Counted from the first letter of the stretch, positions 8,435 to 32,545 are shown. The stretch: 39,134 nt of DNA from Rhodoferax sp. (GCA_025351745.1 JANXVI010000160.1:72890-112023), one strand, 5' to 3'. The notes: generated by a model not told the origin, from the letters alone. Numbers and translations are program-made.

Positions 8435-9382
8435 TTAACGGGGCGTGATCACGCCGCGGTCATCTGACAAAACAATTTCCACACGGCGATTCAACTGGCG
8501 ATTGAGAGCCGTATCGTTGGGTGCTGTGGGAAAAGAAGCACCATAGCCACGGACAGCGATTTGCGCGCTCGGTGAGCCCAGATCCAGCAGTGCATCACGC
8601 ACAGCCACGGCTCGCCTCTCAGACAACTCCTGGTTGTGCTGACTGCTGCCAGTGCTGTCGGTAAAGCCTTCGATCAACACTGCGCGCTTTGGATTTTGCT
8701 GCAGTACGGTAGCCAGTCGCTGGACCATGCGCAGACCATCGGCATTGAGCTTGGCCTGGTCAACGGAAAACAGCACATCGCCCAAGGTGATGACCAGACC
8801 GCGCTCGGTCTTCTTGGCCGCCAAATCCGCCAACTGTGCTTCAAGCTGCTGGTTGCGCGCATTGGCTTCGGCTGCAAGGCGCTGTGCTTCAGACTCACTG
8901 GCTTGGGCTAGATTCTTTTGCTGCGTTGCCATGGCCGCCGCATTGCGTGCCGCCTGCGCCGACCGCTCTGCATCTTCAGCCTTCATGCGAGCCTGGTTGG
9001 CTTCCTGCGTGCGTTGGTCCAAACGGACCTGGTCGCGAACGGCGGCCGAACCTGCGATGTCTGCTTCAGAGGATTTTCTGTTGGCCACTTCAGTGGCCAA
9101 CGCGATCTTTTGTTTGGTCAAATAGGCGAGCTTGTCCACGGTCTCATTGCTCTCGCGGGCCTTGGCCGCTGCGTCGGCTTTGGCCAATGCTTCGGCTGCC
9201 AATTGCATTTCCAGCGCTGCGTAGGTAGCAACCTTGGGGTTGCTCTGGGCTTGCGTGTAATCGGCGTGCACCTGATCCAGCAAACTGGTTGATTTGGGGC
9301 CACTGGCGCAAGCGCTGATGAGTATCACGGTACTGGCCAGCAGGATATGGAGACGGTTTTTTTTGTTAATCATGGTGATCAC
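8435..9382 (-). CDS. OmpA family protein with N-terminal DUF4398-like region
   Basis: Lipoprotein-like signal (LISACAS); coiled-coil Ala-rich region; C-terminal OmpA domain (VLIEGFTDSTGSSQHNQELSERRAVAVRDAL...NRRVEIVL). Confidence 0.9.
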   Translation of the reverse strand: MITMINKKNRLHILLASTVILISACASGPKSTSLLDQVHADYTQAQSNPKVATYAALEMQLAAEALAKADAAAKARESNETVDKLAYLTKQKIALATEVANRKSSEADIAGSAAVRDQVRLDQRTQEANQARMKAEDAERSAQAARNAAAMATQQKNLAQASESEAQRLAAEANARNQQLEAQLADLAAKKTERGLVITLGDVLFSVDQAKLNADGLRMVQRLATVLQQNPKRAVLIEGFTDSTGSSQHNQELSERRAVAVRDALLDLGSPSAQIAVRGYGASFPTAPNDTALNRQLNRRVEIVLSDDRGVITPR

Positions 9383-9394
9383 CTGAACTGGAAA

Positions 9395-9775
9395 TTATTG
9401 GGTTGCGGCGCGGTCGAGTTCCACCCGCAGGACGCGAATGTCTTCTTGCAGCGTTGCGGACACGGCTTGGGCTTTGGCAGAACCAGCCTTGGCTTGTGCA
9501 AGCTTGGCATCGGCCTGGGCCTGGTTGGCATAGTCGGTGGCGGCTTTGTAATCTTTGGCCGCGAGCGCTTGCTTGGCCAAGACCAGCTTGGCGCGCGCAG
9601 CGCGCATGTCTACGGGCGCAAATTCGGTGCCGTCTGCGCTATTGGCATTGTCGATTGCGGCTTGCGAGACGGCGACGTCTGCAGTGGCCGGCGCCTTCAA
9701 GCTGCTCGTGCACGCGCCGAGGGTCATGATGCCGACGATGCATGCCACTGATAACCAGGATTTCGTTAATTTCAT
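9395..9775 (-). CDS. DUF4398 domain-containing lipoprotein
   Basis: Start re-assigned to 9775 (MKLTKSWLSVACIVGIMTLGACTSS, lipobox LGAC); Ala/Lys-rich DUF4398-like helices; longer ORF to 9883 lacks a signal at its N-terminus. Confidence 0.85.
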   Translation of the reverse strand: MKLTKSWLSVACIVGIMTLGACTSSLKAPATADVAVSQAAIDNANSADGTEFAPVDMRAARAKLVLAKQALAAKDYKAATDYANQAQADAKLAQAKAGSAKAQAVSATLQEDIRVLRVELDRAATQ

Positions 9776-10047
9776 TTTTGGCTTTCTTGATAAAGAGCGT
9801 CGACATCCGCACAAGCGCTTGCGACTGAAAGGTTGTACATCGAGTGAAACACGGTGTCTGTGTGCTGCCGCACGTAATCTCACACCGAAACAGTTGGTGG
9901 CAGATGAGCAACGCCCATTTAGTTGTTGGCAATCGATCCGCTTTTATGTGTATTGGCGCACGGACCGAAAGTTTGCGTACACAGAACATGCAGGGTGTAC
10001 GCAAGGTACTCACTGACACACAGACTTCTAAACCACGAAAGAACGAC

Positions 10048-11205
10048 ATGAAAAACTTTAAACCACTGTATTGGGTGGGACTTGCAGGGCTGGGCTCAGT
10101 CTTGGCAACATCGGCGCTGGCGCAAGACAGCAAGTACTACTATTGGGGTCTCGGTGTGGGTCAATCGCAATCTCAGATTGATGACCGGCAGACCACCAAC
10201 AGCCTGTTGCGCACATCGAACAGCCCGGGCTCGTTTACCAGCGAACGCCAAGACACCGGTTACAAGGTGTTTGGCGGCTACCAGTTCAACAGGAATATCG
10301 GCTTGGAACTGGGCTATTTCAACCTCGGCAAGTTCACCTACATTACATCCCTTCCCGGCGGCGCGCTGAATGGCCGCTATGAAACAGAAGGTATCAATCT
10401 GGACTTGGTGGGCACCATGCCCTTGAGCGAAAAATGGTCAGCATTGGCACGCGTTGGCGCACAGTACGCAAACACCCGCGATGCGTTCGGCGGACCAGGA
10501 TTGCCAGCCTCAGCGTCCAAAGACAATAGCCAACGCGACACCAATGTCAAAGTGGGCTTGGGACTTCAGTACGAATTGACGCCTTCCATCTTTGTGCGGG
10601 CAGAAGCCGAGCGCTTCCGCGTCAAGGACGGTATTGGTAGCAATGGCGATGTCAATTACTACTCTATGTCGCTGGTGTTCCCCATCGGACGCCGTGCAGC
10701 TACACCGGTGGCAGCACCGATGCCAGCCGTCTACGTAGCACCCACACCACCACCAGCCCCCGAGCGGGTCATGGCGCCGCCTCCGCCCGCACCGACTCCC
10801 CCACCTGCTCCTGTGGCCATGCCGCGTAAAGTGCAGTTCTCGGCCGATTCGTTGTTCACTTTCAACAAGGCTCAGGTGCGCCCCGAGGGACGCACTGCGC
10901 TTGACGCATTTTCCCGCAACCTGCAGGGTACCCGATTCAGCAATATCTCTGTTGAAGGCAACACCGACCGTATCGGCTCCGATGCCTACAACCAAAAACT
11001 GTCGCAGGAACGTGCGGACGCGGTCAAGGCCTACCTTGTATCGAACGGTGGCATCGATGCCAGCAAGATCTCCGCCAAGGGACGCGGCGAAACCAATCCT
11101 GTGACTAAGCCAGGTGACTGCAAGGGCAACAAGCCCACGCCGAGCCTGATTGCCTGCCTGCAGCCTGACCGTCGCGTGGATGTGGTTGTGACCGGTGAAC
11201 GTTAA
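10048..11205 (+). CDS. OmpA family outer-membrane protein (beta-barrel + Pro-rich linker + OmpA C-terminal domain)
   Basis: Start at MKNFKPLYWVGLAGLGSVLATSALAQ (signal peptide); barrel-like YYYWGLGVGQSQSQ; linker APPPPAPTPPPAP; OmpA motif GNTDRIGSDAYNQKLSQERADAVKAYL. Confidence 0.92.
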   Translation: MKNFKPLYWVGLAGLGSVLATSALAQDSKYYYWGLGVGQSQSQIDDRQTTNSLLRTSNSPGSFTSERQDTGYKVFGGYQFNRNIGLELGYFNLGKFTYITSLPGGALNGRYETEGINLDLVGTMPLSEKWSALARVGAQYANTRDAFGGPGLPASASKDNSQRDTNVKVGLGLQYELTPSIFVRAEAERFRVKDGIGSNGDVNYYSMSLVFPIGRRAATPVAAPMPAVYVAPTPPPAPERVMAPPPPAPTPPPAPVAMPRKVQFSADSLFTFNKAQVRPEGRTALDAFSRNLQGTRFSNISVEGNTDRIGSDAYNQKLSQERADAVKAYLVSNGGIDASKISAKGRGETNPVTKPGDCKGNKPTPSLIACLQPDRRVDVVVTGER

Positions 11206-18237: not shown

Positions 18238-19158
18238 ATGGAATTTACTAAAACACCTGGCTGGCTGGACTGGTACGCCGGGCCCGGCAAACCCCGCTTC
18301 CGACTCCCACCCGGCAGCGTGGACGCGCACTGCCACGTGTTTGGTCCCGGCGAGCAATTTCCCTACGCGCCCGAGCGCAAGTACACGCCCTGCGACGCGT
18401 CCAAGGAGCAGTTGTTTGCGCTGCGTGACCACCTGGGCTTCGACAAAAGCGTGATCGTGCAGGCCACCTGCCATGGTTCGGACAACCGGGCGCTGGTCGA
18501 TGCGCTGCTGGCGTCCAACAACAAGGCGCGGGGCGTGGCCACCGTCAAGCGGGATGTGACCGATGCCGAGCTGCGTGCCATGCACGCGGCTGGTGTGCGC
18601 GGCACGCGCTTCAACTTTGTCAAGCGTTTGGCCGACTTCACGCCGCCGGATGTGCTGCTGGAGATTGCCAACCGCATTGCGCCACTCGGCTGGCATGTTG
18701 TCGTGTACTTTGAGGCGCAGGACTTGCCGGAGCTGTACGACTTTTTTACCGCCATAGCTGACAATTTAGCCACCACGGTGGTCGTAGACCACATGGGCCG
18801 CCCGGACGTCAGCAAGCCGGTGGACGGCCCCGAGTTTGCGCTGTTTGTGAACATGCTGCGCGAGCACTCCAATATCTGGAGTAAGGTGAGCTGCCCTGAG
18901 CGGCTCAGCGTCAGCGGGCCGCCTGCGCTCCACGGCGAGCAGCATGCCTACGCCGATGTGGTGCCCTTTGCCAAGTACCTGGTCGAGACCTTCCCTGACC
19001 GCGTACTGTGGGGCACCGACTGGCCGCACCCGAATCTGAAGGACCTTATGCCGGACGATGGCCTGCTGGTGGACTACATTCCCCAGATCGCCACCACACC
19101 GGAGCTGCAACGCAAGCTGCTGGTGGACAACCCGACACGGCTGTATTGGAACCAATAA
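18238..19158 (+). CDS. ligI: 2-pyrone-4,6-dicarboxylate hydrolase (LigI/PmdD)
   Basis: PGSVDAHCHVFGPGEQFPYAPERKYTPCDAS and WGTDWPHPNLKDLMPDDGLLVDYIPQIA. Confidence 0.95.
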   Translation: MEFTKTPGWLDWYAGPGKPRFRLPPGSVDAHCHVFGPGEQFPYAPERKYTPCDASKEQLFALRDHLGFDKSVIVQATCHGSDNRALVDALLASNNKARGVATVKRDVTDAELRAMHAAGVRGTRFNFVKRLADFTPPDVLLEIANRIAPLGWHVVVYFEAQDLPELYDFFTAIADNLATTVVVDHMGRPDVSKPVDGPEFALFVNMLREHSNIWSKVSCPERLSVSGPPALHGEQHAYADVVPFAKYLVETFPDRVLWGTDWPHPNLKDLMPDDGLLVDYIPQIATTPELQRKLLVDNPTRLYWNQ

Positions 19159-19192
19159 TTTGCGGGACAGACCAAGATTTGCATCGAAATTT

Positions 19193-20544
<1,352 letters not shown>

Positions 20545-20548
20545 GCAC

Positions 20549-20584
20549 TTGCGGGACAGACCGTAGCGAAGCGGAGCTCTGTCC
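20549..20584. repeat. GGGACAGACC-type intergenic hairpin
   Basis: GGACAGA...TCTGTCC 7-bp stem; ttgcgggacagacc is identical to 19160-19173. Confidence 0.6.
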
Positions 20585-20605
20585 TCAACTGATAAGGAAA
20601 TTGCA

Positions 20606-21562
20606 ATGAAAACCATCAAAGTCGCGCTGGCCGGTGCGGGCGCCTTCGGCATCAAGCACCTGGACGGCATCAAAAATATTGACGGTGTAGAAGTTGTATC
20701 GCTGGTCAGCCGCGAGCTGGAGAAGACCCGCGAGGTAGCCGCCAAATACGGCATCGCGCACGTCACCACCGATCTGACCGACAGCCTGGCGATCAAGGAG
20801 ATCGACGCCGTCATCCTGTGCACGCCCACGCAAATGCATGCCGCACAAACCATCGCCTGCCTGCAGGCGGGCAAACACGTGCAGGTGGAGATTCCATTGG
20901 CAGATTCGGTGCAAGGCGCAAAGGATGTCATAGCCATGGCCAAGACCAGCGGCCTGGTGGCGATGTGCGGCCACACGCGCCGCTTCAACCCCAGCCACCA
21001 ATACGTCCAGACCCAGATCAAAGCAGGTGCTTTCAACATCCAGCAGATGGATGTGCAAACCTATTTCTTTCGCCGCAGCAACATGAACGCACTGGGCCAG
21101 GCGCGCAGTTGGACCGACCATCTGCTGTGGCACCACGCGGCCCACACCGTGGACCTGTTTGCGTACCAGTGCGGCAGCCCCATCGTCAAAGCCCATGCAC
21201 TGCAAGGGCCGATACACCCCACGTTGGGCATCGCGATGGATATGAGCGTCCAATTAAAGACTGCCAACGGCGCCATCTGCACGTTGAGTCTGAGCTTCAA
21301 CAACAACGGCCCGCTGGGCACGTTCTTCCGCTACATCGGCGACAACGCAACCTACATCGCTCGCTACGACGATCTCTACAACGGCAAAGACGAACAGATC
21401 GACGTCAGCCAAGTGGCAGTGTCGATGAACGGCATAGAACTGCAAGACCGCGAATTCTTTGCCGCCATCCGCGAGGGCCGTGAGCCCAACAGCAGCGTAG
21501 CGCAGTTGCTGCCGTGCTACCAGGTGCTGCACGACCTGGAGAAGCAGTTGAAAGACCAATAG
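20606..21562 (+). CDS. ligC: 4-carboxy-2-hydroxymuconate-6-semialdehyde dehydrogenase (LigC; Gfo/Idh/MocA fold)
   Basis: VALAGAGAFGIKHLDGIKNIDGVEVVSLVSR Rossmann start; HVQVEIPLADS; DHLLWHHAAHTVDLFAYQCG; cluster position. Confidence 0.93.
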   Translation: MKTIKVALAGAGAFGIKHLDGIKNIDGVEVVSLVSRELEKTREVAAKYGIAHVTTDLTDSLAIKEIDAVILCTPTQMHAAQTIACLQAGKHVQVEIPLADSVQGAKDVIAMAKTSGLVAMCGHTRRFNPSHQYVQTQIKAGAFNIQQMDVQTYFFRRSNMNALGQARSWTDHLLWHHAAHTVDLFAYQCGSPIVKAHALQGPIHPTLGIAMDMSVQLKTANGAICTLSLSFNNNGPLGTFFRYIGDNATYIARYDDLYNGKDEQIDVSQVAVSMNGIELQDREFFAAIREGREPNSSVAQLLPCYQVLHDLEKQLKDQ

Positions 21563-21620
21563 GAGGCTGGGCGGCAGAGCGGTCTGCTCCGTGTCCCCCC
21601 CAACGCAAGAAGCTTGCTAT

Positions 21621-22127
21621 TTAAGGATTGCCAAGAAAATCGCGCTTGCCAATCTCCACCCCGTTGTGGCGCAACATGGCGTAAGCAGTCGTGATGTGGA
21701 AGTAGAAGTTGGGAATGGCATGGCCCAGCAAAAACTGCATGCCCTTGTAGTGGGTTTCCTTCTCACCGCGCTTGGTGACGATATCTTTGTCTTCGGTACC
21801 GTCGATCTGCGCGGCAGTGATGGTCTGGATGAAAGCAATGGTCTTGGCCACGCGGGCTTTCAACTCGGCAATCGTTTTCTCGTTGTCTTCAAACGCGGGG
21901 ATGTCGACCCCGGCCAGACGCGCCACAACGCCCTTGGCGGTGTCGCAGGCGATCTGCACCTGGGTAGCCATGGGCAGCATATCGGGAAACAGACGGAAGG
22001 CCGTCAGGCTGGCGTCGCTCAGCTTCTTTGCGTCGATATGGGCCTGGGTTTTGTCCAAAATATTGGACAGGTTTCCCAGTATGTTGACAAAACGGGGCAC
22101 GCTGGCTTGGTACATGGAGATGGTCAT
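21621..22127 (-). CDS. DUF1993 family protein
   Basis: MTISMYQASVPRFVNILGNLSNILDKTQAH...GKRDFLGNP; typical DUF1993. Confidence 0.88.
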   Translation of the reverse strand: MTISMYQASVPRFVNILGNLSNILDKTQAHIDAKKLSDASLTAFRLFPDMLPMATQVQIACDTAKGVVARLAGVDIPAFEDNEKTIAELKARVAKTIAFIQTITAAQIDGTEDKDIVTKRGEKETHYKGMQFLLGHAIPNFYFHITTAYAMLRHNGVEIGKRDFLGNP

Positions 22128-22525
22128 GAAAGGTCCTCAAAATAGTTGTCGCGGAATCGCGGCGGGCCATGGTAACTGGTATCACCTGGCCGCGCAGACG
22201 GTCCGCCAATCCCCCCATTCAGACTGCCCCACCTGTTCCAGCGCGAGACCACACGGTGCGATGGCCTGGCACCAACCGTCTACTTCTAACAGTCCACTGG
22301 AATCCATTGCGTGCGAATGCGGAATGCGAACCCTGTCGATGCGCCCAATCGCCATCACCCCCTTATTCAGCTGTGCATCACTTTGGTTGATACCGCGCTG
22401 TACATTGCCGGATGGCCGCTGCCGACTCCACTCCGCAAAAAATGGTCTGCGCTTGGTGCGGTAGCGCACAGCATTGGGCGTGCCGTACGCGCATCGTCGA
22501 CTACATTCGCGCCCCCACCTTCACC

Positions 22526-23371
22526 ATGCCCACCGCACACATCCGCTTAGCCCGCCTGCACGCCGTTGCGCGCATGGTCTGCGCGCTGGCAAGCGCGGTC
22601 ACGTGCGGTGGCGCACCGGCGCAGCCGGACGTACGCGCAGAGTACATGCCCGCTGTGACGGTAACGGCCAAAGCAAATCCCAATCCTGTTGAAAAGTCTT
22701 ATCGCAAGATGGTCAAGGGCATGGATCTGTTTCAACGGCAACACGCCCTGTCGCCCAACGCGGAACTGCGCTTCAAACTGCTGCCTCGCAAACAAGGGAC
22801 CGACATGAACACCATCACACTGGCCGTGGTCGGTGACACCGTGGACTTCGTGCTGCCCATCGCTGCAGATCACACGTTCGCATTGCCGCGCCATGCACTA
22901 GCGCAGCAGGAAGATGCCCAGGTCGTGCCCAATCGCAGGGCGTTGAGCCTGACCTGGCGCACCGATATCCGAACACCGGGCCTGCCACCCGACACCCGGC
23001 GCTTGGGCGACCTGCGCCTGGAATGCAGGGTGGGTATGGAGGCAGGTCTGATATCCAACAGCAGCAGTTTGATCGGTCGACTGGCTGGCGCAGTTTTCGA
23101 CACACCAGCATATTGCGACAAGCCAGCGCCGCTGTACCTCTTCTTCGCCGACCGGCCCTTGTTTAGCGTGACCTTGCTTGCCGGCGCGCGGCGCCACGTT
23201 CTTAGCATCGACAAGCTTTATGCCAATGCCAGCGACGACACCGACATGCAAGCCAACCTTCCGTATTGCGATTGCGAAATGCTGGTGGACCGCACGTATG
23301 TCTTGCCCTTGGGCGACAACACTTGGCCTGACGACACCTTGGTGCTGTTTGAATACATGGACGGCGAATGA
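22526..23371 (+). CDS. Hypothetical exported protein
   Basis: Signal-like ARMVCALASAVTCGGAPAQ; conserved-looking body; ATGA overlap with next gene; start uncertain (track: 22412). Confidence 0.7.
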   Translation: MPTAHIRLARLHAVARMVCALASAVTCGGAPAQPDVRAEYMPAVTVTAKANPNPVEKSYRKMVKGMDLFQRQHALSPNAELRFKLLPRKQGTDMNTITLAVVGDTVDFVLPIAADHTFALPRHALAQQEDAQVVPNRRALSLTWRTDIRTPGLPPDTRRLGDLRLECRVGMEAGLISNSSSLIGRLAGAVFDTPAYCDKPAPLYLFFADRPLFSVTLLAGARRHVLSIDKLYANASDDTDMQANLPYCDCEMLVDRTYVLPLGDNTWPDDTLVLFEYMDGE

Positions 23372-25246: not shown

Positions 25247-25888
25247 CTACGGCTTGGGCTTCACCACGCGCGGTGTTTTTGCGACGGACGAGGTCAATTT
25301 GTCGCCTTGGTCCAGGCACAACAGCGTATCCACGTATGACATGAAGCGGTTCAAGTAATCGGGCGAGGTGTCGCGCATCAACTCCAGTGCGCGCAGCGCC
25401 ACCACGTGCGAATTGATTGGGCCTGCGTTCTTGGGGGCTTTGCCCAACGCCTGGGTGACCTGCTTCTCGGCGCTGAGCTTGGACCAGGTGTTTCTGAAGT
25501 AGCGCACAGACTTCAATTCGGTGCGCGGCGGTGTGTTGAATGCCCCCAGCGCGTGGGCCGATTTCTGCGGTGCATGTTGCGCCAGATGGCGCACCAGGTC
25601 GCCAAGTGCTTCGTGCTGCGTCGGCGCCACTTTTGGCACGGGCAACGTGGTTTGCACATCGCACTGCGCATGTTCCATGCGCTTGCGCAATGCTGCTACC
25701 GCCGAGTCCAGCTTTCCGTCCAGGATTCGTTTGACGCTTCCCTGGTGCCCACTGGCACGGTGTGCCAGCGCTTCGAGGTAATGGAATCGCACGGGGTCAA
25801 AATGGTTCGCGCCTTCCAAGCGCAAACCGTCCAGGCGTGCGTCCACCACCCGTTCCTCCACCACCGCGCTGCGCCCCTGGTCACTCAT
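25247..25888 (-). CDS. DUF2894 domain-containing protein
   Basis: GANHFDPVRFHYLEALAHRASGHQGSVKRILDGKLDSAV; last gene of the four-gene operon; ATGA overlap with OmpA gene. Confidence 0.85.
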   Translation of the reverse strand: MSDQGRSAVVEERVVDARLDGLRLEGANHFDPVRFHYLEALAHRASGHQGSVKRILDGKLDSAVAALRKRMEHAQCDVQTTLPVPKVAPTQHEALGDLVRHLAQHAPQKSAHALGAFNTPPRTELKSVRYFRNTWSKLSAEKQVTQALGKAPKNAGPINSHVVALRALELMRDTSPDYLNRFMSYVDTLLCLDQGDKLTSSVAKTPRVVKPKP

Positions 25889-26523
25889 TGCGGAGCCGAG
25901 GTTGTGTTGTTGGCACGGGGTACGGGCGCCATCTCTACCCGGCGATTTTGCGCGCGGCCTTTTTCATCGGCGTTCGTCGCTATCGGTTGCTGCGCACCAA
26001 AGGCGGCTGCGAACACCATGGCCGATGGCATTCCCTCTTCGATCAATGCACGCGTGACGGTCAACGCGCGCTGGGCCGACAGCTCCCAGTTGTCTGCAAA
26101 CTGGCCATTGCTGCGCACCGACTTGTCGTCGGTAAATCCGCTCACCATCAGCATCTCATTGCGCGCGGCCAGATAAGACTGCAAGGGCTTCACCAACGAA
26201 CTGAGCAGTTGCCGACCATCGGGTTGCAATTGGTCGGAGTTCAACGAGAACAGCACCCGGCCGCTGATGCCGATGCGCCCATTGGTCAATGTGATGCGGC
26301 CAGACGCCAATGGAACGGCCAGGGCCTTTTCCAGGGTCATGCGGCGCTGCTCTTCAACCTGCCGCCTTTTTACCTCGTCTTCCAAATGCGTTGCCATCTG
26401 CATCTGGACCACCAGCACACCCACCAACAACAGCACAAAGGCGCCCAAAAGGCCCGACATCAAATCGCCAAAAGCGGCCCAGACCGGTGCCGTTTGCTCC
26501 CCCCCCGCGTCATAGTCTTCCAT
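25885..26523 (-). CDS. MotB/ZorB-like protein: one TM helix plus OmpA peptidoglycan-binding domain
   Basis: PVWAAFGDLMSGLLGAFVLLLVGVLVV (TM with Asp20 in MotB-like position) and MVSGFTDDKSVRSNGQFADNWELSAQRALTVTRALIEEGM. Confidence 0.88.
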   Translation of the reverse strand: MEDYDAGGEQTAPVWAAFGDLMSGLLGAFVLLLVGVLVVQMQMATHLEDEVKRRQVEEQRRMTLEKALAVPLASGRITLTNGRIGISGRVLFSLNSDQLQPDGRQLLSSLVKPLQSYLAARNEMLMVSGFTDDKSVRSNGQFADNWELSAQRALTVTRALIEEGMPSAMVFAAAFGAQQPIATNADEKGRAQNRRVEMAPVPRANNTTSAPQ

Positions 26524-26525
26524 GC

Positions 26526-28511
26526 TCAGGCAGCCTCGTGAGCCATCAACGCTTGCTTGGCGGGCAGTTGGCGCAGCTCATCAAAAACTTCCTTTTGCGA
26601 CAGGATGCTGAGGTCAATGATCTCGCGCGCCTGTGCCACGTAGTAGGCCAGTTGCTCGTCGCTTCGGGCCATGGATTTGTCCATGGCGCCTTCAATGCGC
26701 TGCAGGTTGGCGATCAACTTGGCGTTGGCATCGCTGAAGGCGTTGACCGCAAAGGTGAACGATTCGCTGAGCGCCGAGACCTCTACCGCACTGCTGGTGA
26801 CGTTGGCGGCAATGTCGGCCAACTTGGCCGACTCAGCGTCCACCTTCTCGGCAAATTGGCCGCCGGCATGGGTCAGGGCTACCGCCGAAGAAGCAACCAA
26901 CGAATCGATGACGGCGCGCTGTTCTACCGATGCATGGTTGATTCCATCCAACAGCGTACTGAGCGTAGCCATGATGCGGCTGCGCTCTTCCAGCAGTTCA
27001 TTGTCGCGCGCGGCGCTGCTCGATACTTCTTGCCGCAATTTCCCTATCACTTCGGCCGCCGCGCGCGGGGCCTCGGAGGCGGTTTCAATGAGCCGGGCAA
27101 TCGGTTCTTCGAGCGCAACTCCCAACGTCGTCAGATGTCCTGTGAGTGCCGTTTGCAAATCGCCCAAGCGCTCCACCGCCGCGTTACCTCGCACCGCTTC
27201 TTCGTCACGCAGCGCGCTGAGTTCCGCCCGCAGCGTGCCGACGGCGTGGTCCATCCGTTGGGCGTGCTGTCGGGTCCAATCGGCCTCAGAAGCGATACGC
27301 GTGCGAACCAGGTCCTCAGCGCTTGCCGTCAACGTGGCAATATTGTTCAGCGTTGCGCTGGCGCTGGCCTGCGCATCCGCGGTGGTCTGCTGCCACTCGT
27401 TCTTGAGTGCGGTTGCTATCACTCGCAGGGACCCGGTCCATGCCTCTAAACGCTCGCGGTCGTAGGCCACATGGGCTCGCTGCTGATTGGCAAGCGTATC
27501 GGTCCAAGCGTCTGTCGCCGAAGATGCTGTAGCGGCAATGCGGGTAGACAGCCCATCCAACTGGTTTTGCGTCGTGTCCACCAGTCGCTCGTGCAGTGTC
27601 TTCGCTTCACGCGCAATGCCTGCCATGGTGCTTTCAAACACGGGCGTGATACTGGCGCTAACCGCCTGCGCGCTATGGGACAGACTGTCGCGCAGAGACT
27701 GGCCGACAGAATTGGCCAGATCGGTATAAACGCCTTTCACGCCACTGTGGAAATTTTCCTGGTTGCTCAGCAGCCGGTCATTTAATTGGCGGCTCATACT
27801 TTCCATCTGCGCCATCATGGCCTGCATCTGGGCGACAACGGTAGGCAAGGCTTGGGATTGCAATTGCAGCGCCTTGTAGGTTTCCTGGCGTTGGTGCGTC
27901 AGCGAAAAGGCGCGCAACGTGGTGGCGATGGCGGTGTCCAAGCCTTGCGCCGCCGACATTCTTTCGCGACGGCTGATGGCCGACATCAGGCCCAGCATCG
28001 CAGATGTGGCGACACCCGCGACTGATGTACCAAACGCCAGGCCCAGGCCCTTGATGGGCGCTGCGAATGCGGAGCGTATGGCTTGCAAGTCAGTAGTCCC
28101 TTCCAACGCAAATACGGCCCCGTTGAGCGTGACCACCATTCCCAGGAACGTGCCCAGCATGCCCAGCATCACCAGCAAGCCCACCAGATAGGGCGTCAGC
28201 GCTGGGCCGGGCAGACCCACACGCTCACCCTCAACCCGCAGGCGCACCGGGTTTTGCAGTGAGGGGTGGACGTGGACCAGCCACACACCCAAGTTGGGTA
28301 TATGCGCCGGAATGGCCAACAACGCCTGTGCCAGCGTGTCCGTAGCCTGGCGAAAGCGCCGCAATTCAAGAGCGCCAACCATGTAGACCGCCGCAATGAT
28401 CAGCGTCATCAGCAGTGCCAGCACGTTGGCAGACCCCAAGAATCCGCTGGCGACCCACGCGGTGGCCATGGCGCCCAGTACAAAGGCGCCAGCAAAGAAA
28501 TATCTGTTCAT
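26526..28511 (-). CDS. DUF802 domain-containing protein: MotA/TolQ/ExbB/ZorA-like membrane core plus long Ala-rich coiled-coil tail
   Basis: Start re-assigned to 28511 (MNRYFFAGAF), ATGA overlap with DUF3348. Core LVGLLVMLGMLGTFLGMVVTLNG...IRSAFAAPIKGLGLAFGTSVAGVATSAMLGLMSAISRRER; about 430-residue helical tail. Confidence 0.87.
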   Translation of the reverse strand: MNRYFFAGAFVLGAMATAWVASGFLGSANVLALLMTLIIAAVYMVGALELRRFRQATDTLAQALLAIPAHIPNLGVWLVHVHPSLQNPVRLRVEGERVGLPGPALTPYLVGLLVMLGMLGTFLGMVVTLNGAVFALEGTTDLQAIRSAFAAPIKGLGLAFGTSVAGVATSAMLGLMSAISRRERMSAAQGLDTAIATTLRAFSLTHQRQETYKALQLQSQALPTVVAQMQAMMAQMESMSRQLNDRLLSNQENFHSGVKGVYTDLANSVGQSLRDSLSHSAQAVSASITPVFESTMAGIAREAKTLHERLVDTTQNQLDGLSTRIAATASSATDAWTDTLANQQRAHVAYDRERLEAWTGSLRVIATALKNEWQQTTADAQASASATLNNIATLTASAEDLVRTRIASEADWTRQHAQRMDHAVGTLRAELSALRDEEAVRGNAAVERLGDLQTALTGHLTTLGVALEEPIARLIETASEAPRAAAEVIGKLRQEVSSSAARDNELLEERSRIMATLSTLLDGINHASVEQRAVIDSLVASSAVALTHAGGQFAEKVDAESAKLADIAANVTSSAVEVSALSESFTFAVNAFSDANAKLIANLQRIEGAMDKSMARSDEQLAYYVAQAREIIDLSILSQKEVFDELRQLPAKQALMAHEAA

Positions 28512-29281
28512 ACGGCTTGTAGTGTTGTCTCGTGGTGAAATGCTTCCAGCAGGCCTACGGCGGGCTGCAGGCGAAAGTCCAATTCGGCCAGAAGCACGGT
28601 TTGCAACTCTGCGCAAAAGCGTGCCAACCAGGCGCCGGGTTTCATCCACAAATCAGGGTTGTCGTTGCTTCGCTGCGTGTCCGTCAGCGCCTGCTGATAC
28701 GCCTTGCGCAAGTAGTTAAAACGCTTCTCAAGCAAAGAAGGGAGCGTGGCTAACAATCTGCCTTCGCACTCAACCAAAATGCCGTCGAATGTTGCGTCGA
28801 GTGCCACCAGTTGCCTCAGCCTTGGAGATGCCCTGGCAACCCCATGGCGCAACTTGACCCGCACACTGCGCACGCCGGTTTCCATGTCGCGTTGGTGGGC
28901 TTGGTGGTAGCGGCGAAAAGTTGCGTAGGCCCTCACATCATCCAAAGGCCCCTCCAACTTTGGCAACGTCAGTTCGGCCCGGGTTCTGCCAGTGTTGGGC
29001 GCATGGCTCTTGGTTATGGTGTTTTCCAATTGCGAACGCATTTTGGCGAAGATTACATCCAGTGGACCATCGTCCCCCGACTGGTCGGGCAACGCGGCCG
29101 CTTCCACGGCGATGGAATTGTGCACGCTGGTCAGTGCGATTGCATCCGTAAAACCTATCCACAGCCCCAGTCTTTCTCCAAAGGCAGCCGCGGGCTCGGC
29201 CGTTTGCAAAACGGACAGGTCAGCGAGGGTGCGAATGAGTAGCGAGCTGTGAAGGTTTGTACGCGTAAGGGCTCGCGTCAT
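28508..29281 (-). CDS. DUF3348 domain-containing protein
   Basis: LLIRTLADLSVLQTAEPAAAFGERLGLWIGFTDAIALTSVHN; first gene of the operon. Confidence 0.86.
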   Translation of the reverse strand: MTRALTRTNLHSSLLIRTLADLSVLQTAEPAAAFGERLGLWIGFTDAIALTSVHNSIAVEAAALPDQSGDDGPLDVIFAKMRSQLENTITKSHAPNTGRTRAELTLPKLEGPLDDVRAYATFRRYHQAHQRDMETGVRSVRVKLRHGVARASPRLRQLVALDATFDGILVECEGRLLATLPSLLEKRFNYLRKAYQQALTDTQRSNDNPDLWMKPGAWLARFCAELQTVLLAELDFRLQPAVGLLEAFHHETTLQAV

Positions 29282-29556: not shown

Positions 29557-30195
29557 ATGAAAATCACACACCTGGTGGCGGCTGCGGCCATCACCTTATT
29601 GTCTGCAACCTCGGGATATGCAAATACAGCGGCCAGCGGAAAGATTACTGCCGGATCGACATTTGGAACCGACAATGCGTTCCAGTTCTACAACGACTCG
29701 ACCGCGGGAGAATTTATTACATCACTCACATGGGATCTGACTCCTATTGGCGGTTTTTTTGATACCACCAATGCGGCGCCAGGCCTTTCGAGTTCGGGTC
29801 TGCAGCAGAGTGGTTTGAGCGACAACGTAGGGGCCATCTTCCCGACCAACGCTTTTCAGAATGGCCGGCCTTCACTGACCATTTCGTTCACTCCGAATTC
29901 CTTCGCGTCGGGTGAAAAATTCATATTTGGCGTGGATACTGACCTGTTTAGCTGCATAGATTGCGTTGGAATCAACGGAAACGGATTTGTTGGGGCTACG
30001 GTTTCAGCGATTTTTTCCAACGGGCAGACCCGTTATGGAACCTATGTGTTGAGCAATGAGGCTGGATTTGGTTCAAAGGTTGGCATCACGTCGGTGACGG
30101 CAGTGCCTGAACCAGAGACGTACGCCATGATGCTCGCCGGTTTGGGCCTCATTGGAGCCATCGCGCGTCGCCGTCAACGCAAGCACACCGCATAG
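29557..30195 (+). CDS. PEP-CTERM sorting domain-containing secreted protein
   Basis: Signal peptide plus C-terminal VPEPETYAMMLAGLGLIGAIARRRQRK. Confidence 0.95.
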   Translation: MKITHLVAAAAITLLSATSGYANTAASGKITAGSTFGTDNAFQFYNDSTAGEFITSLTWDLTPIGGFFDTTNAAPGLSSSGLQQSGLSDNVGAIFPTNAFQNGRPSLTISFTPNSFASGEKFIFGVDTDLFSCIDCVGINGNGFVGATVSAIFSNGQTRYGTYVLSNEAGFGSKVGITSVTAVPEPETYAMMLAGLGLIGAIARRRQRKHTA

Positions 30196-30301: not shown

Positions 30302-32383
30302 CTACCAAACGCGAAGGCGCGCGTTGGGCTCCAAATAGAGACGCTGACCGGGCACCACATCGAACGCTTCGTACCACGCGTCGACATTGCGAACTGTCGC
30401 AATGCGCAAACTATCTGGCGCGTGGTTATCAGCGGTCAACTGCTTGTGCAATGCTTGATCGCTGAGTTTGCTGCGCCAGCTCCTTGCAAAGCCGATGAAA
30501 AACTGCTGGTCCTGGGCACGCAAGGCTTCTTTGCCGAGGCCTTTGCTGCCGGGCGATGCGCGGTAGGCATCAAACGCCGCGACCAGTCCACCAAGGTCAG
30601 CCAGGTTTTCCACCAGGGTCACGTTGCCATCCACGGCTTTGCCTGGAAGAGGAGCGTAACCAGCGTACTGCGCCACCAGGGGTTGGGTGGCCCGCTGGTA
30701 TTGGGCCGTGTCGTCGGGCGTCCACCACCTTCGCAATGCACCTGTGGCATCGTATTCCATGCCCAGCGTATCAATGAAATGGCTTACTTCGTGGCCGATG
30801 ATGGCGCCAATCGCACCGTAGTTGGCGGCGTCCGACGCTGCAGGGTCAAATTTTGGCACTTGCAACAACGCCGCTGGAAAGTTATAGGCGTTTTGCTGAA
30901 ACAGCAGCACGGCACCCACCGTGTGTGCGCCCATAGCCCATGTGCGATTGTCAGCGGCTTGGCCCAGACGCCCCAGCGCCTGCCGGTAATCCCACAATGC
31001 CACACGCTGCAGGTTGCCAGCCACATCGTGCGGGCTGATGCGCAAGTCTGCATAGTTGCTCCATTGCTCAGGGTAGCCCAAACCAAAATAGAGCCGTCGC
31101 AACTTCTCGCGTGCAGTAGCCTTGGCGGGCGGTGACATCCAATTGACACCTTCCAAGCGATGACCAAAGGCCGCTATCACATCCGCGGCAATGCCCTGCA
31201 CGCGTGCCTTGTATGCAGCGGGGAAAAAGCGCTCCACATACAAGCGTCCAAGCGCCTCTCTCAATGACTTCTGCGTAGCGTCCAACGCGCGTTGCTCACG
31301 CGGCGGTGGCACAGCACCCTGCGCACTTCGAAAGGCCAACGCAGCCTCCGCAATGGAATGCGGTAACACATCGGCATACCGGTCGACGGCGTGAAAACGC
31401 AGATAGTCCGCCCAGGTGTTCTCTGGGTTTGCGGCCACCAAGGCGGCCAAGCCTTGCAAAGCACCGGGTTGCCATGCCACAAAGGATTTTTGCCGGGCCA
31501 GTCCTGCTGCCGCAAATAGTGCATTCCAGTCCAGGCCAGGCGCCTTTTGGGCGAAATCCGCCCGCGTCCATAAATTGTCGGCATTGCGGTCTTCGGAAGA
31601 GATTTGTGGTGTCGCGTGGCTTTGCGCCAACGCTGTCTCCAGCACCAATACAGCCTGTGCACGGGCGCGAAAACTGTCTGGACGACCCGCGCCAACCAGG
31701 GCCAAGACATGCTCGATGTAGGCTCGATAGGAATCCCTGACGGCCTGCTTTTCCGGCAACGGGTTGAGGTAGTCATCCCGGTTCGGCATGCCCAAACCGC
31801 CTTGCAACAGAAAGGCGACGTTATTCGCTTCGCCATGCAGGCCCGTCTCGACCGACAGGCCCAATACATGGGCGGAGTTGTAGACGCCCATATTCAGTGG
31901 GTCTACGTCGGCGCGTAATTCGTTGCCCAGCAATCGAGTCAGCGCAGCCTTATTGCGCACTTGGTCTATGCGCCGCAGCAGTGCCTTGACAGGTGTTAGT
32001 CCGGCGGCTTGGATGGCGTTCTGGTTCAAATAGGCTGTGCGAAAGTCTGCTACTTTGCGAGCCAACGAACCCACCGGTTGCGTGGCAGCAGCTTCCAACA
32101 ATTGCGCAACACGGCGTTGCCCCAACGCAATCAATTCGGTGCGCGCCGTGACTCGGTCCTTCCCCTCAGGGATAGTCGTATCGCGCAACCAGGTCCCATT
32201 GGCATACGCGAAAAAGTCGTCACCTGGTGGGATGCGCGTATCCACCCCCTCGTCGATAGCCGCTTGAGCGTACACAATGCCCACACTACAAAGTGCAATC
32301 GCCATGGTGCACCGGGCGACAAACCGGATCAAACCCTCCGTTGGGTTTTGGGCGTTGTCTGGGGTTGGTGAAGGTTTGCACAT
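30302..32383 (-). CDS. M13 family metallopeptidase (PepO/neprilysin-like), secreted
   Basis: GAIIGHEVSHFIDTLGMEYDATG (HExxH), DGVDTRIPPGDDFFAYANGTWL-type N-terminus; start re-assigned to 32383. Confidence 0.94.
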   Translation of the reverse strand: MCKPSPTPDNAQNPTEGLIRFVARCTMAIALCSVGIVYAQAAIDEGVDTRIPPGDDFFAYANGTWLRDTTIPEGKDRVTARTELIALGQRRVAQLLEAAATQPVGSLARKVADFRTAYLNQNAIQAAGLTPVKALLRRIDQVRNKAALTRLLGNELRADVDPLNMGVYNSAHVLGLSVETGLHGEANNVAFLLQGGLGMPNRDDYLNPLPEKQAVRDSYRAYIEHVLALVGAGRPDSFRARAQAVLVLETALAQSHATPQISSEDRNADNLWTRADFAQKAPGLDWNALFAAAGLARQKSFVAWQPGALQGLAALVAANPENTWADYLRFHAVDRYADVLPHSIAEAALAFRSAQGAVPPPREQRALDATQKSLREALGRLYVERFFPAAYKARVQGIAADVIAAFGHRLEGVNWMSPPAKATAREKLRRLYFGLGYPEQWSNYADLRISPHDVAGNLQRVALWDYRQALGRLGQAADNRTWAMGAHTVGAVLLFQQNAYNFPAALLQVPKFDPAASDAANYGAIGAIIGHEVSHFIDTLGMEYDATGALRRWWTPDDTAQYQRATQPLVAQYAGYAPLPGKAVDGNVTLVENLADLGGLVAAFDAYRASPGSKGLGKEALRAQDQQFFIGFARSWRSKLSDQALHKQLTADNHAPDSLRIATVRNVDAWYEAFDVVPGQRLYLEPNARLRVW

Positions 32384-32545
32384 GCTGGCTCGCTCAAGTT
32401 GGGTGTGACGGTCCGCTGAGATGCTATGCGCGTCGCGGCTGCGTGTCGCGCACGGGGTGGACAGATTTAGATCACAACCGGACATTGCCACTGGTTGCAA
32501 ATCTCCCAGCATTCAACGAAGATAGCCCGCCATAGGCAGCAAAAA

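Follow-up and report, generated by a model that had tools for sequence, protein, structure and literature searches.

Zorya types I and II have been solved as 5:2 stators, which need ion flow, the tail and peptidoglycan binding for their function; no depolarisation was found in either type, and the antiviral work is done by nuclease effectors, of which that of type II, ZorE, is a nickase that is recruited to the membrane on infection (Mariano 2025, PMC11890865). That study gives no structure or mechanism for type III, which Payne 2021 (PMC8565338) had defined by two DUF families beside zorAB and had counted 6,401 times. Phages plated less well on E. coli with the type III operon of Stenotrophomonas nitritireducens, and the partner proteins were proposed to regulate ZorAB (Payne 2021, PMC8565338). 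During phage infection of B. cenocepacia, a change in expression was seen for the first genes of a Zorya III operon (PMC12584637). Within the literature searched, DUF3348 and DUF2894 are named only by Payne 2021 and Mariano 2025. The designations of the two partners are swapped between sources: in the text of Payne 2021 DUF3348 is ZorF and DUF2894 is ZorG, and PADLOC-DB v2 has the reverse.

The four-gene zorAB locus

The window, i.e. the whole stretch of 39,134 nucleotides of Rhodoferax sp. that was analysed, contains the following four genes.

28508..29281, minus strand: DUF3348 gene; all-helical, soluble protein of 257 aa, partner or effector (PF11828, 218.6 bits; ZorG3, 1.3e-65)
26526..28511, minus strand: zorA3; 661 aa from ATG, MotA/ExbB/TolQ-like membrane core and long helical tail (ZorA3, 9.2e-249)
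25885..26523, minus strand: zorB3; MotB-like protein of 212 aa with one TM helix and an OmpA-type peptidoglycan-binding domain (ZorB3, 9e-110; PF00691, 1.3e-18)
25247..25888, minus strand: DUF2894 gene; helical protein of 213 aa (PF11445, 191 bits; ZorF3, 1e-66)

The genes are transcribed in the order DUF3348, ZorA, ZorB, DUF2894, and their reading frames are all intact. The tight packing on the minus strand given in the preliminary description was confirmed, with ATGA overlaps of zorA3 with the DUF3348 gene (28508-28511) and of the DUF2894 gene with zorB3 (25885-25888), and a 2-nt gap between zorA3 and zorB3 (26524-26525); both sequence motifs quoted there are also present. The four genes are translationally coupled. 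The start of zorA3 was taken at ATG; the mechanical ORF list begins at an upstream GTG, at 28649.

The Zorya type III models of PADLOC-DB match all four proteins (E 1e-65 to 1e-248) and outscore the type I and II models by hundreds of bits, and both DUF families score far above their Pfam cut-offs. The combination that distinguishes type III is found in the window: a ZorA with a MotA/ExbB/TolQ core and a long tail, recognised by the ZorA3 model and by a match to the solved structure 8VVN; a ZorB with a transmembrane aspartate (Asp20, invariant) and an OmpA domain; and adjoining DUF3348 and DUF2894 genes instead of ZorC, ZorD or ZorE. None of the 34 other ORFs of the window resembles ZorC, ZorD or ZorE, as had been noticed before for the neighbourhood of the operon, and the locus is thus of neither type I nor type II. 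The four genes almost certainly constitute a complete chromosomal Zorya type III anti-phage system. The preliminary description had proposed an uncharacterised ion-driven stator of the ZorAB/MotAB kind with two partner proteins; the stator with its partners fits the evidence, but since 2021 the combination has had a name, Zorya type III, and one of its members defends E. coli against phage (PMC8565338). The window operon is therefore an already catalogued defence type, found in a Rhodoferax-related bacterium: it agrees with the described type III systems (Payne 2021, PADLOC) in all four families, in the four-gene organisation and in model matches of 1e-65 or better, and differs in its host lineage. 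By analogy with the characterised member, the window operon is predicted to protect against phage. What is new here are signs of a rod length that changes by whole helix turns, of a conserved tip, and of two helper proteins unlike any solved structure.

Compared with Zorya type I (ZorABCD; PDB 8VVN), the window system has in common the Thr and Thr-Ser of the ZorA core, the Asp and peptidoglycan-binding domain of ZorB and the long ZorA tail, but it is without ZorC and ZorD, its tip sequence is unlike that of type I, and it has instead two helical partners in which no enzyme fold is recognisable. With type II (ZorABE; PDB 8VVI) it has a ZorAB stator with a tail in common, whereas the HNH nickase ZorE is missing and the type II model scores are much weaker, in the 1e-6 range. 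The label DUF802, which had been given to ZorA, holds poorly in the window, as the match (17.7 bits) lies under the cut-off of 22.6 and covers half of the model; the ZorA3 model (9e-249) identifies the protein firmly. The DUF802 score of a ZorA homologue encoded elsewhere in the assembly, on a different contig, is 65 bits.

Stator core, rod and tip of ZorA

Three parts of ZorA are distinguished.

27978..28187, minus strand: TM3-TM4 core, residues 109-178; Thr121 and Ser163 invariant, Thr162 near-invariant, presumed ion path
26667..27962, minus strand: rod; length-variable helical spacer containing the DUF802 segment
26529..26753, minus strand: tip, the last 75 residues, containing QRIEGAMDKSMARSDEQLAYYVAQAREIIDLSILSQK; conserved, presumed partner docking site

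In an alignment of 17 diverse sequences, Thr121 of TM3 and Ser163 of TM4 are invariant and Thr162 is nearly so. The sole meaningful match of a PDB profile search with the ZorA core was 8VVN (7.5e-4), the type I ZorA of Shewanella, in which Thr121 and Thr162-Ser163 align with the Thr and Thr-Ser of GTF and LTSVWGVA. A ring of conserved Ser/Thr coordinates sodium in 8VVN, and the type III stator of the window may likewise use sodium. In ZorB, Asp20 and the OmpA peptidoglycan motif N-x2-LS-x2-RA are invariant among seven diverse sequences. By analogy with the solved types, the window proteins would assemble as five ZorA and two ZorB.

The membrane-core fold class and the OmpA-like peptidoglycan-binding domain are shared with the flagellar stators MotAB and PomAB, and could be taken to indicate a diverged MotAB, ExbBD or TolQR unit serving flagella or nutrient uptake. 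ZorB3 scored 359.7 bits against PRK09040 (cut-off 194), but the MotB and Pal models remained well under their curated cut-offs on ZorB, the best MotB-type model reaching 85 bits of the 283 needed. Neither a MotB model over its cut-off nor a flagellar context was found, the neighbouring Pfam families in the window include neither flagellar nor ton genes, the cytoplasmic rod is hundreds of residues long, and the margin of the type III models over those of types I and II also speaks against such a unit, which we regard as extremely improbable.

Downstream of the core, the ZorA tail is long, Ala-rich and helical, with a hydrophobic period of 3.66-3.68 residues. We measured the distance from the TM4 motif to the conserved C-terminal motif, alignment-free, in 104 proteins. 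This core-to-tip distance, which is 466 residues in the window ZorA, takes 45 distinct values between 360 and 903 residues, and these all fall in one phase of a period of 3.65 residues (power 22.9, a value reached in 0/2,000 randomisations, whose maxima were <8.8 in 95% of cases). Indel lengths from pairwise alignments of ZorA tails have the same period, although the helical pattern itself could bias these. The ZorA rod thus gains or loses length in whole helix turns, which is what a continuous rod would do if its packing register has to be kept. The whole-turn rule supports a rod; it does not by itself prove a role in torque, because a preference for such indels is general among continuous coiled coils.

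At the end of this variable spacer, the last ~70-75 residues of ZorA have a mean pairwise identity of 67%, compared with 12% in the mid-tail and 80% in the core. The tip matches no solved ZorA tail in the PDB. Its conservation suggests that the DUF3348 and DUF2894 proteins may dock at the tip. Together with the rule on rod length, the conserved tip makes it possible to approach by experiment how a membrane motor signals to soluble partners.

Partner proteins and a proposed mechanism

AlphaFold2 predicts the DUF3348 protein as all-helical with confidence (pLDDT 85.8) and the DUF2894 protein as a two-part helical protein (pLDDT 77.9). Foldseek comparison of both models with the PDB returned nothing at E 0.001 or better, with best probabilities <0.3; at the level of sequence profiles, nothing in the PDB was found for DUF3348, and DUF2894 gave one short match to PscE (0.0054), too weak to interpret. 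No PDB fold resembles the partners, and therefore no nuclease or helicase fold is recognisable in the modelled structure of either, unlike ZorD and ZorE; this distinguishes type III from types I and II. A missing fold match does not prove that the partners have no activity. The strongest conserved feature of the partners is an invariant NAGPxN motif of DUF2894 together with the helices that follow it. A comparison of the two proteins showed that they are unrelated. Weak DUF3348 matches in two further genomes (L008, L009) were rejected as relatives, being coiled-coil segments of HlyD-type export proteins.

We propose a series of linked steps. Five ZorA and two ZorB, as in the solved types, would form an ion channel in the inner membrane, anchored to peptidoglycan by the OmpA domain of ZorB. 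When a phage disturbs the envelope, ions would pass along the path of Asp20 and the Thr/Ser residues, and this passage would set the ZorA pentamer rotating, together with its long helical rod in the cytoplasm. At the end of the rod, the conserved tip would then recruit or activate the soluble DUF3348 and DUF2894 proteins, which may stop the infection near the entry site. That the operon is a complete type III anti-phage system working by an ion-driven rod and partner proteins is, in our judgement, very probable as an overall explanation; the recruitment of the partners by the tip we consider an even bet. Against the overall explanation stands that neither partner has a recognisable effector activity. 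The partners may act without a nuclease of their own. More speculatively, type III as a whole may have no nuclease, the rod being a driveshaft whose length is free and whose tip is fixed in rotational register, with a type-III-specific tip working through two helical proteins of unrecognised fold that block the entering DNA or recruit a host enzyme; we put this forward tentatively, as somewhat doubtful.

The missing nuclease and helicase folds would also agree with partners that are regulators only, as Payne 2021 proposed (PMC8565338), the infected cell being killed or arrested by ion leak through ZorAB according to the original abortive-infection idea. No depolarisation was found in types I and II, where nuclease effectors act (PMC11890865), and the rod with its conserved tip suggests that the target is soluble; killing by ion leak with purely regulatory partners is therefore rather unlikely.

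Distribution, exchange and surroundings of the operon

ZorB3 is present in 77/251 genomes of the window's family (31% of family species), and the DUF2894 and DUF3348 profiles built here match exactly these genomes and no others, so the co-occurrence of the genes, on which the preliminary description had made its reading depend, is complete. The 127 loci have one constant gene order, G-A-B-F, and strand, and lack genes only where a contig ends. Zorya type III was found in 23/49 good genomes of the genus and in 9/363 genomes of a class-wide draw. Within the genus, genomes with the system are larger than those without it (median 4.4 vs 2.7 Mb), and incomplete, small bins therefore contribute to the absences. 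Full-length plasmid matches, among those listed, were on replicons >350 kb. In the phage collection the only matches were generic OmpA proteins, none of the viral contigs encodes a Zorya type III relative, and a PHROGs search gave chance-level matches only.

The host is uncultured, and its genome is a fragmented bin in 498 contigs with a completeness of 91.7 and a contamination of 6.85%. Another genome of the genus, G152, has a contig that over 14.8 kb is identical to a named Rhodoferax record, and the host is therefore probably related to Rhodoferax. The assembly contains a further type III operon (L019, G000:C260:1-10431), whose ZorB is 91% identical to that of the window and whose ZorA tail exceeds that of the window copy by 62 residues. 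The contig of this operon, 10.4 kb in all, agrees along its whole length at 93% identity with a contig of G152, which is another species, and all other positives of the family and genus have one copy per genome; given these points and the contamination of the bin, a true duplication was rejected in favour of what is probably a stray contig.

The trees of ZorAB and of the partner proteins, from 29-30 genomes, do not conflict with each other at any strongly supported split, whereas the combined Zor tree disagrees with rpoB at 7/14 of its strong splits. The tree comparison was repeated with G164, whose rpoB is misplaced, left out, and the rpoB topology was then rejected for Zor (AU p about 1e-78). 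The genus of the window is monophyletic in the rpoB tree and not in the Zor tree. The surroundings of the operon differ between genera, with no general neighbour; the sister of the window's genome in the rpoB tree (G197) shares the flank at window 18943-23357 next to its own operon. The four genes thus co-evolve as a unit, are exchanged as a block and then stay put for a time, and exchange as a block fits a defence system.

A housekeeping envelope stator, acting in the cell wall, export or surface motility and giving phage protection only as a result of over-expression in E. coli, would account for the single copy, for the location on chromosomes or large replicons, for the preference for larger genomes, for the absence from phage and viral collections, and for the few defence genes adjoining the operon; one clade even has the operon next to dnaA-dnaN-gyrB. 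However, less than a third of the family species and fewer than half of the good genus genomes carry it, its strong conflict with the host tree and its changing chromosomal sites indicate that it is dispensable and exchanged, and its Zorya relatives act in defence, which makes a housekeeping function improbable. Of the roles suggested earlier, defence is accordingly more likely than motility or envelope homeostasis, given the patchy occurrence and horizontal exchange of the system. Weighing against the type III defence system working by rod and partners, the window copy lies outside a defence island, the flanks of related copies are defence-poor, and the operon is absent from viral contigs.

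No other defence genes were found beside the window copy, and at 30 other loci the 138 ORFs of the flanks include few (a type I specificity subunit, an AbiD). The flanks of the 127 loci contain no conserved fifth gene. A promiscuous ABC-ATPase-like cluster lies near 40 loci, on both sides and strands, and the next most frequent neighbour occurs at 16 of 127 loci, many of them in Limnohabitans. A promoter scan found sites no more numerous than in shuffles. In a clade of genus g1 (G150, G216, G244, G183; L175-L178 and relatives), the operon directly follows dnaA-dnaN-gyrB-like genes, named from their sequence starts, which is an unusual fixed location for a defence operon.

Among the neighbours of the operon, an M13 peptidase (window 30302-32512) lies beside a PEP-CTERM protein (29557-30195); the peptidase is present at high similarity in only 2/100 genus genomes, too rare for an empty-site comparison. 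Elsewhere in the window lie adjacent envelope genes: a DUF4398-OmpA protein (8435-9382) obtains a weak ZorB-model score via its OmpA domain; its gene is adjoined by that of a DUF4398 protein (9395-9883), and a protein with an OmpA barrel and an OmpA domain is encoded on the opposite strand (9844-11205).
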